Assembly (NCBI GenBank): GCA_944323275.1
Contig: CALUSA010000015.1
Coordinates: forward strand, 1 to 34,359
Direction of reading: 5' to 3'
Source of the DNA: Candidatus Gastranaerophilales bacterium
GTDB lineage: Bacteria; Cyanobacteriota; Vampirovibrionia; Gastranaerophilales; Gastranaerophilaceae
Length of the DNA stretch: 34,359 nucleotides
Below, in pieces: positions 1,157 through 25,687 of the stretch. Within the stretch, counting starts at the first letter, position 1; every line of letters begins with the position of its first letter. Below the pieces are notes generated by a model. It searched no databases, was not told where the DNA came from, and saw nothing but the letters and a program-made list of their open reading frames with translations. A program made the translations under genes and the position numbers.

Positions 1157-2542
1157 ATGTTAGAATTTAACTGCAAGAATGTCAGTGCCGAAAGACTTGG
1201 TGAAGGCAACGGATTAAATCTTGAAGAAGAATTCAACAAATATAATGACAAAATCGCTAAAATTATTAGCGATATGAACTCTAAAAAAGATAAGCCCGGT
1301 CAATGGCTGCAATGGATGAATCTTGGCTACAGTGAAGAAACTGTCTGGTTTGTAAAAGAATATGCGGCTATGACGCATGGACGTTTTGAAAATATTCTTG
1401 TACTGGGTATAGGCGGCTCGGCATTAGGCGGTATGGCTGTATGCGAAGCACTTTTAAAGCCTTATTGGAATTTACTTTCCAATGAACAGAGAAACAATCT
1501 GCCCAAAATCTTCTTTTTAGACAATATTGACCCTGACCAGATGAACGGGCTTTTAGATGTTTTGGATTTGAAAAAAACTCTAGTGAACGTAATCACAAAA
1601 TCCGGCTCCACAGCCGAAACAATGTCACAGTTTATGGTTTTAAAAAGCAGGCTGGAAGCAGAACTCGGCGATGATTACAGAAAACACATTGTTGCAACTA
1701 CAGACCAGATAACGGGTATTTTAAGACAGATTTCCAATGAAGAAGGCTATAAAACATTTGTAATCCCCGATGATGTCGGCGGACGTTTTTCTGTATTTTC
1801 CGCAGTAGGTTTGCTGCCGTTTGCGCTTGTCGGTATTGATATAGAAGAACTTATGCAGGGTGTCAAAGACATGGATCTTGCACTGAAAAATACTGACATA
1901 AGACACAATATTGCAGCACAGAATGCTCTTATCCATTATTTAATGGACACACAAAAAGGCAAAAATCTTGCGGTAATGATGCCATATTCAAGCAGGCTTA
2001 AATATGTTTCCGACTGGTTTGTACAAATCTGGGCAGAAAGCCTCGGAAAAAACAAAAACCTCGACGGCGAGCCTGTATGCGTGGGTCCTACACCGATAAA
2101 AGCAGTAGGAGCAACAGACCAGCACTCGCAAATTCAGCTTTATAACGAAGGACCTAACAATAAACTGATTACCTTTATACGGGTAAAAGAGTTTGATTCG
2201 TCAGTAGAAATACCAAAGATATTTGAATATACAGGTATCGGATATCTGGGCGGCAAAACAATAAACGAACTTCTTAATGCTGAAGCGGATGCAACACGTG
2301 TCACACTGGTTGATTACCAGCGTCCTAACGTAACCATTACAATAGACAACATATCACCTTACAATATAGGACAACTGCTTTATATGCTTGAAGTACAAAC
2401 CGCAATAACCGGTGCGCTGTATCATATAAATGCTTTTGACCAGCCAGGGGTAGAACAGGCTAAAAATTACACCTACGCACTCATGGGCAGAGCAGGTTAT
2501 GAAGAATCAGCAGCTGTTCTGCAAAAAAAATTATCACTGTAA
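1157..2542 (+). CDS. pgi: Glucose-6-phosphate isomerase
   Basis: Interconverts glucose 6-phosphate and fructose 6-phosphate in the cytosol (glycolysis/gluconeogenesis). At 461 residues it fits the shorter bacterial PGI form. Visible family motifs are GIGGSALGG (84-92) and TKSGSTAET (147-155) of the two SIS folds, DVGGRFSVFS (206-215, PGI signature 1), WAESLGK with the likely catalytic Glu294, DQHSQ with His323, and GALYHINAFDQPGVEQAK (419-436, signature 2, ending in Lys436). GAGGAG lies 6 nt before the ATG. It sits alone between a divergent envelope-type gene and a coiled-coil gene 115 bp downstream. All key residues are present. Confidence 0.96.
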   Translation: MLEFNCKNVSAERLGEGNGLNLEEEFNKYNDKIAKIISDMNSKKDKPGQWLQWMNLGYSEETVWFVKEYAAMTHGRFENILVLGIGGSALGGMAVCEALLKPYWNLLSNEQRNNLPKIFFLDNIDPDQMNGLLDVLDLKKTLVNVITKSGSTAETMSQFMVLKSRLEAELGDDYRKHIVATTDQITGILRQISNEEGYKTFVIPDDVGGRFSVFSAVGLLPFALVGIDIEELMQGVKDMDLALKNTDIRHNIAAQNALIHYLMDTQKGKNLAVMMPYSSRLKYVSDWFVQIWAESLGKNKNLDGEPVCVGPTPIKAVGATDQHSQIQLYNEGPNNKLITFIRVKEFDSSVEIPKIFEYTGIGYLGGKTINELLNAEADATRVTLVDYQRPNVTITIDNISPYNIGQLLYMLEVQTAITGALYHINAFDQPGVEQAKNYTYALMGRAGYEESAAVLQKKLSL

Positions 2543-25200: not shown

Positions 25201-25373
25201 CGCCGGCAAATGTGTGCGGTACGGATAATTTCATATAGTCAACAGCCCCCGATAACTTATTGAACGGATGCATAAAACAAGTTCAACCGTCATCTTATAC
25301 ACCAGCACCCAAGGACTCCGTTCAAAAGTTGACTAAATGTCAAATTTTGAATGGAGGAAAGTACATGGGGTCT

Positions 25374-25413
25374 ACCTCTCAGAAACAATACTTAATTGTT
25401 TCTTCGGCAGAGT
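25374..25413 (+). repeat. Hairpin element copy 4
   Basis: ACCTCTCA border, stem AGAAACAAT/ATTGTTTCT (25381-25389 with 25395-25403), TCGGCAGAGT border. It lies inside the candidate structured RNA. Confidence 0.82.
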
Positions 25414-25443
25414 CGTAAAATGCTAGACTCGGTGCCACTCGCT

Positions 25444-25485
25444 ACCTCTCATAAATATGCCACCGGCATATTTATTCGGCAGAGT
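25444..25485 (+). repeat. Hairpin element copy 5
   Basis: ACCTCTCA border, stem ATAAATATGCC/GGCATATTTAT (25451-25461 with 25465-25475) around loop ACC, TCGGCAGAGT border. It is the second copy in the structured RNA. Confidence 0.82.
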
Positions 25486-25655
25486 GTGTACCACTCCTAG
25501 CCTGAGATAAGAACTCTGTTCAAAACGATTGAGTATCGTTTTGAATAGAGGCAGGCTAAGTGAAAAACGAAGTTTTTCCGTACCGTATAAAAATTTACGA
25601 GCCATACATATCAGGATGCCCTCGGGTACAAGCGAGGTCCCACTCAGACATTTAA

Positions 25656-25687
25656 TAAAAGAAAAACCGGACATCAGTCCGGTTAAT
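25656..25687 (-). terminator. Terminator of the 25735-26376 gene
   Basis: On the - strand ACCGGAC pairs with GTCCGGT around a 4-nt loop and is followed by TTTTCTTTT. It lies about 50 bp after the stop codon. Confidence 0.85.

Follow-up and report, generated by a model that had tools for sequence, protein, structure and literature searches.

Rickettsia palindromic elements are small palindromes that insert at many places, RNA genes included, and that are found in-frame within protein genes. RAYT/Y1 transposases act on hairpins of single-stranded DNA and leave no target duplication. REP sequences, also small palindromes, lie mostly at gene 3' ends and in the gaps that separate convergent genes (PMC3733652). 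Together with MITEs, these are the closest kinds of element to a repeat system encountered in a Candidatus Gastranaerophilales gut MAG, from which a stretch of 34,359 nucleotides, hereafter the window, was analysed. One region of the window had been taken, in a sequence-only reading, for a new structured RNA of about 370 nt; we are confident that it is instead a composite of mobile repeats.

Like MITEs and other small mobile repeats, such as enterobacterial RU-1/RU-2 (PMC2759123), the underlying repeat (the base element) is short, non-coding, multi-copy, intergenic and apparently non-autonomous, and it is dispersed, with 36-44 left ends in its own genome and about 150 in a congener. In contrast to MITEs, it has no terminal inverted repeats and no detectable target-site duplication, and no parent IS was found at the left-end loci examined. 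The GTAG- and CGTC-tagged palindromes of the REP type (PMC3733652) resemble the present system in being small, in their placement at 3' ends and between convergent genes, and in the occurrence of Y1 genes in some of the genomes. However, a REP/RAYT system comprises a palindrome of 20-40 bp with a GTAG or CGTC tag and a cognate Y1 gene, whereas the hairpins described here are untagged (the one that we call hairpin A reads ACTCTGCCGAA-stem-TGAGAGG(TA)), the base element is a 177-bp sequence with a multi-helix fold, and its genome has no Y1 gene. The likeness to Rickettsia palindromic elements is one of description: these too are small palindromes with many insertion places, including RNA genes, but the hairpins here lie within a different repeat and within partial copies of tRNAs. 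The inverted termini and target duplication that define MITEs, and the tag and cognate gene that define REP/RAYT systems, were looked for and not found. The open-access papers searched contain no description of the system, which would seem to be a repeat family, new to the literature, of a gut lineage not yet in culture.

A base element with nested inserts

The base element is a non-coding, dispersed repeat of about 177 bp (176-178 bp) whose two ends, TTTCATATAGTCAACTGAC and ...CTCAGACA, are each conserved and share no resemblance. Its own genome contains 36 left ends at no more than one mismatch (44 at no more than two) and 30 right ends. In the copy at 25229-25650 of the window, five palindromic inserts are nested (Table 1). 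When these were taken out and replaced by the 5-nt stretches of uninterrupted copies, 173 of 176 bases were identical to the copy on contig C120. In other copies, the stretches that correspond to 25225-25310 and 25414-25442 of the window are separated by about 24 nt, against 104 nt here, and a search of the same genome returned 68 matches, with individual parts of the query matching on their own. At the roughly 50 places read, the number of hairpin inserts per copy ranged from none, one or two up to five. The hairpins that had been likened to insertions in the peripheral loops of a large RNA are, then, insertions in the literal sense, present in some copies and missing from others. Many base-element copies, including that of the window, are truncated or mismatched.

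Table 1. Components of the base-element copy, in window positions
Feature	Position	Strand	Description
Left arm of the proposed closing helix	25217..25228	undefined	Host flank; absent upstream of other copies
Whole base-element copy with five nested inserts	25229..25650	+	Left end TTTCATATAGTCAAC, right end CCCACTCAGACA
Base element, segment 1	25229..25310	+	Left end; contains GCCCCC (arm of the GACCCC/GGGGTC helix) and GGATGC (arm of the covarying helix)
Insert 1	25311..25358	+	Hairpin AAGGACTCCGTTC...GAATGGAGGA; GCAAC at the same place in other copies; present or absent among copies of its own genome
Base element, segment 2	25359..25372	+	AAGTACATGGGGTC
Insert 2 (hairpin A)	25373..25413	-	ACTCTGCCGAA-stem-TGAGAGGTA on the minus strand; ACTTC at the same place in other copies
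Base element, segment 3	25414..25442	+	
Insert 3 (second hairpin A)	25443..25485	-	Different apical stem, ATATGCC/GGCATAT; ACTCC at the same place in other copies
Base element, segment 4	25486..25499	+	GTGTACCACTCCTA
Insert 4	25500..25628	+	GCCTGAG...CTCGGGTA; 53 nt where uninterrupted (copies L040 and L038); split here by insert 5
Insert 5 (within insert 4)	25509..25593	-	Double hairpin, CTCTGTTC...GAATAGAG plus a second small hairpin; minus-strand tail TACGGTACGG; replaces GTTGGCGAG
Base element, segment 5	25629..25650	+	Right end CAAGCGAGGTCCCACTCAGACA

The insertion site is intergenic, between a serB-like gene and a convergent ORF of 221 aa. In 11 congeners the same gene pair is separated by 11-157 nt and holds no element, against 534 nt in the window, and these empty orthologous sites indicate that the insertion is specific to the window's lineage. 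As had been noted from the sequence, the region contains no protein frame worth keeping; the only one to mention is an 83-aa minus-strand ORF at 25423-25674, which is not convincing as a protein frame.

Apparent 'long' elements, considered as candidates for an autonomous parent, resolved into adjacent copies or large internal insertions. At L163 (2008-2198), a base element has its interior, from the GACCCC arm to the GGGGTC arm, in reverse orientation, so that two left ends face each other, an arrangement that we read as recombination across the stem arms.

The apparent 370-nt RNA

The stable nested fold with strong inverted repeats, on which the RNA candidate was founded, is real: a 383-nt stretch folds on the plus strand at -134 kcal/mol (z = -9.6 against dinucleotide-preserving shuffles). 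It does not hold as a single unit, since its pieces occur separately and the minus strand does equally well (-140.3 kcal/mol, z = -8.4), as is to be expected of palindromes. An uninterrupted base-element copy shows a modest excess over chance (z = -2.3), from which it follows that the inserted hairpins account for most of the excess stability. A fold of about 370 nt is what stacked palindromes produce of themselves. Within it, the hairpin at 25514-25550 is paired at 15 of 16 positions. The closing helix exists as a pairing (11 of 12 positions between 25217-25228 and 25574-25585) but not as a feature of the element, for one of its strands is host flank and the other belongs to the innermost insert. 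The boundaries of 25216-25586 consequently fail at both ends: the left arm is host flank, and the feature ends at 25650.

Searches with the Rfam 15 covariance models, at gathering and relaxed thresholds, matched no known RNA family; nothing reached the gathering score, and the best relaxed hit (E = 0.17) was to a microRNA model. ARAGORN found no tmRNA in the window, and the RNase P RNA of the genome, about which the sequence-only reading had asked, is encoded elsewhere (C94:5586-5936, RF00010, 246 bits). A strong fold without an Rfam match would suit a discrete new structured RNA gene of about 370 nt. Nevertheless, the pieces are separate repeats that occur dozens of times in the same genome, 11 orthologous sites are empty, half of the closing helix lies outside the element and the opposite strand folds as well, so that such a gene may be very nearly discounted. 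As a unit, the 370-nt 'RNA' is an artefact; it is real as a nest of mobile palindromes. A false discovery of a large RNA was thereby averted, and the case shows that stacked palindromic repeats can mimic the fold of a big ribozyme, including its peripheral-loop hairpins and a high fold z-score.

The host flank at 25217-25228 (GCGGTACGG) resembles the tail of the insert-5 type (TACGGTACGG) and is perhaps the remnant of an older, insert-5-like insertion.

Selection and strand in the base-element fold

Homologues with covariation, which the RNA candidate had called for, do exist, although for one helix of the 177-bp element and not for the 370-nt unit. In an alignment of 21 uninterrupted base-element copies, with 500 shuffles as control, the compensatory changes fall in one 6-bp helix. 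Columns 38-84 read G-C in 11 copies, C-G in six, A-U in two and U-A in two, and columns 39-83 read G-C in 12, U-A in seven and A-U in two. Cells with a two-sided change number 20 against 5.3 expected, a value reached by none of the 500 shuffles. The number of pairs so changed, three, stands out less, as 40 of the 500 shuffles attain it. The alignment thus indicates that part of the base-element fold is under selection, either as RNA or as single-stranded DNA. In the window copy, this helix contains an A.C mismatch within segment 1 and is therefore decaying there.

The two internal wobble pairs, 25369-25429 and 25518-25546, are present as described (G-U, or G-T in DNA), but the plus-strand polarity that had been predicted from them is not supported. 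The second sits in an insert type that occurs in either orientation, and the helix that holds G25369 (GGGTCTA/TAGACTC) spans an insert junction; judged from the alignment, the GGGGTC arm of that helix has TGACCCC as its partner in other copies. The wobbles of the base element itself lean towards the minus strand. Its consensus forms 38 pairs (-33.85 kcal/mol), that of the plus strand 27 (-24.39 kcal/mol), and it also contains more conserved G-U pairs, several of which would be A.C on the plus strand. This lean is not decisive, because a predicted structure itself selects G-U pairs, and one pair, columns 20/100 (C-G in 14 copies, U-G in seven), favours the plus strand.

The covarying helix and the better minus-strand consensus with its conserved G-U pairs raise the possibility of a functional structured RNA, specified by the base element and not by the composite, most likely on the minus strand, which spreads as a repeat; a guide- or bridge-type transposon RNA or an RNA parasite would be examples. 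We consider this unlikely. Two-sided changes affect only three pairs, a number matched by 40 of 500 shuffles on the plus strand and 78 of 500 on the minus strand. Furthermore, the pair at columns 20/100 points to the other strand, many copies are truncated or mismatched, that of the window included, and Rfam offers no match. Orientation with respect to neighbouring genes is random (11 co-directional, 13 opposed).

Distribution and possible mobilization of the base element and its inserts

Within the order, 17 of 286 genomes and three of 50 genera contain the left end at no more than one mismatch; copy number reaches about 150 per genome within the genus, and the element is nearly absent from most other genera. 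Base elements are mostly intergenic and near the 3' ends of genes, with convergent gene pairs as the commonest setting (19 of 51); nine of 52 share sequence with an ORF of 100 aa or longer. No match to the base element was found in phage and plasmid records, nor to its left end in IMG/VR viral contigs. Among about 60 pairs of flanks no shared target duplication was detected, the sites having only A/T-richness in common, and in the nested copy L053 the interrupted sequence, AAGT/ACATTTTTT, allows a duplication of 1 nt at most. Left ends seldom occur as inverted pairs, and internal inversion or derivatives explain those that do.

No recurring ORF or autonomous IS was found at the approximately 190 left-end loci examined. 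The window's genome also contains no Y1 transposase gene, and IS110 transposase and reverse-transcriptase domains are absent from it and rare in the genus. Mobilization of REP-like repeats by RAYT/Y1 tyrosine transposases might nonetheless be considered: Y1_Tnp genes are present in eight of 23 congeners, one of them (G098) has a Y1 gene abutted by a base element on each side, and the preference for the 3' ends of genes is that reported for REPs (PMC3733652). Yet the genomes richest in the element (G156, G155 and G161, with 150, 83 and 37 copies, respectively) lack a Y1 gene just as the window's genome does, most of the Y1 genes examined are bounded by different palindromes, of which several are GTAG-type (GTAGGTTGGG/CCCAAC), and the base element carries no GTAG tag. 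We regard this explanation as improbable. Mobilization of the IS200/IS605 or RAYT type was rejected on the missing Y1 gene of the window's genome and on the lack of correlation with copy number across the genus.

The mode of mobilization that we favour over these, while holding it to fall somewhat short of probable, is as follows. The element of about 177 bp, having inserted at this site in the window's lineage, would be non-autonomous, with an enzyme supplied in trans, and not encoded within it, that may recognize a folded single strand, either single-stranded DNA or minus-strand RNA, and insertion would leave no detectable target duplication. The smaller hairpins would be separate and still smaller mobile palindromes that land in loops, replacing about 5 nt, or 9 nt in the case of insert 5. 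Besides the failure to find an autonomous partner or mobilizing gene, two points count against this scheme. The replacement of 5 nt at insert sites fits no ordinary transposition chemistry that we can name, and the covarying fold could, alternatively, reflect function as RNA.

The replaced stretches are about 5 nt at hairpin A (ACTTC or ACTCC) and at insert 1 (GCAAC), and 9 nt at insert 5. Inner stems of hairpin A differ wholly between copies and are always self-complementary, and the hairpin of insert 1 is also found elsewhere in the family. Of 386 genomes sampled across the phylum, 130 contain the pattern ACTCTGCCGAA-N12-30-TGAGAGG, and every one of these belongs either to the family of the window or to a single further family of its order; in the same sample the pattern had no match in other orders or classes, and a reversed control gave none. 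A broader reading, speculative and in our view rather doubtful, is that Gastranaerophilales carry order-wide mobile palindromes with fixed outer arms and freely rewritten, self-complementary inner stems. Their targets would be loops in sequences that code for folded RNA (partial tRNA copies at the position of the D-loop, fragments resembling 5S rRNA, a second mobile element), where they would substitute for a few bases, and structure, not sequence, would guide insertion. By replacing about 5 nt, nesting within one another and occupying partial tRNA copies, the small hairpins make structure-guided insertion without an obvious transposase a testable question.

Several further observations concern the hairpins outside the base element. 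In many Gastranaerophilales, intact genes for Val, Pro, Met, Leu and other tRNAs have just upstream of them tandem partial tRNA copies (leader plus 5' half) that carry hairpin A where the D-loop would be. Four partial units of 84 bp precede a tRNA-Val (L251, about 1240-1610, reverse strand), two precede a tRNA-Pro (L245, 1501-1652), and in the window's own genome hairpin A lies in partial copies before a tRNA-Met (L057, on contig C16); further loci of this kind are L256, L020, L033-L036 and L164. The intact tRNA is retained in the complete cases read. Hairpin A also occurs in two IMG/VR viral contigs (L293, 5765-5808; L294, 1788-1818). Genes of the Y1/RAYT type were located at L280 and L291 (G098) and at L281 (G072), and one such gene lies inside a hairpin A, with GTAG-type palindromes of its own at its ends. 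Finally, a hairpin of the insert-1 type is found in tandem units of about 246 bp (L018, 1-600) whose 3' part resembles 5S rRNA, as identified by eye, and there, too, it replaces 5 nt (TTGCG).
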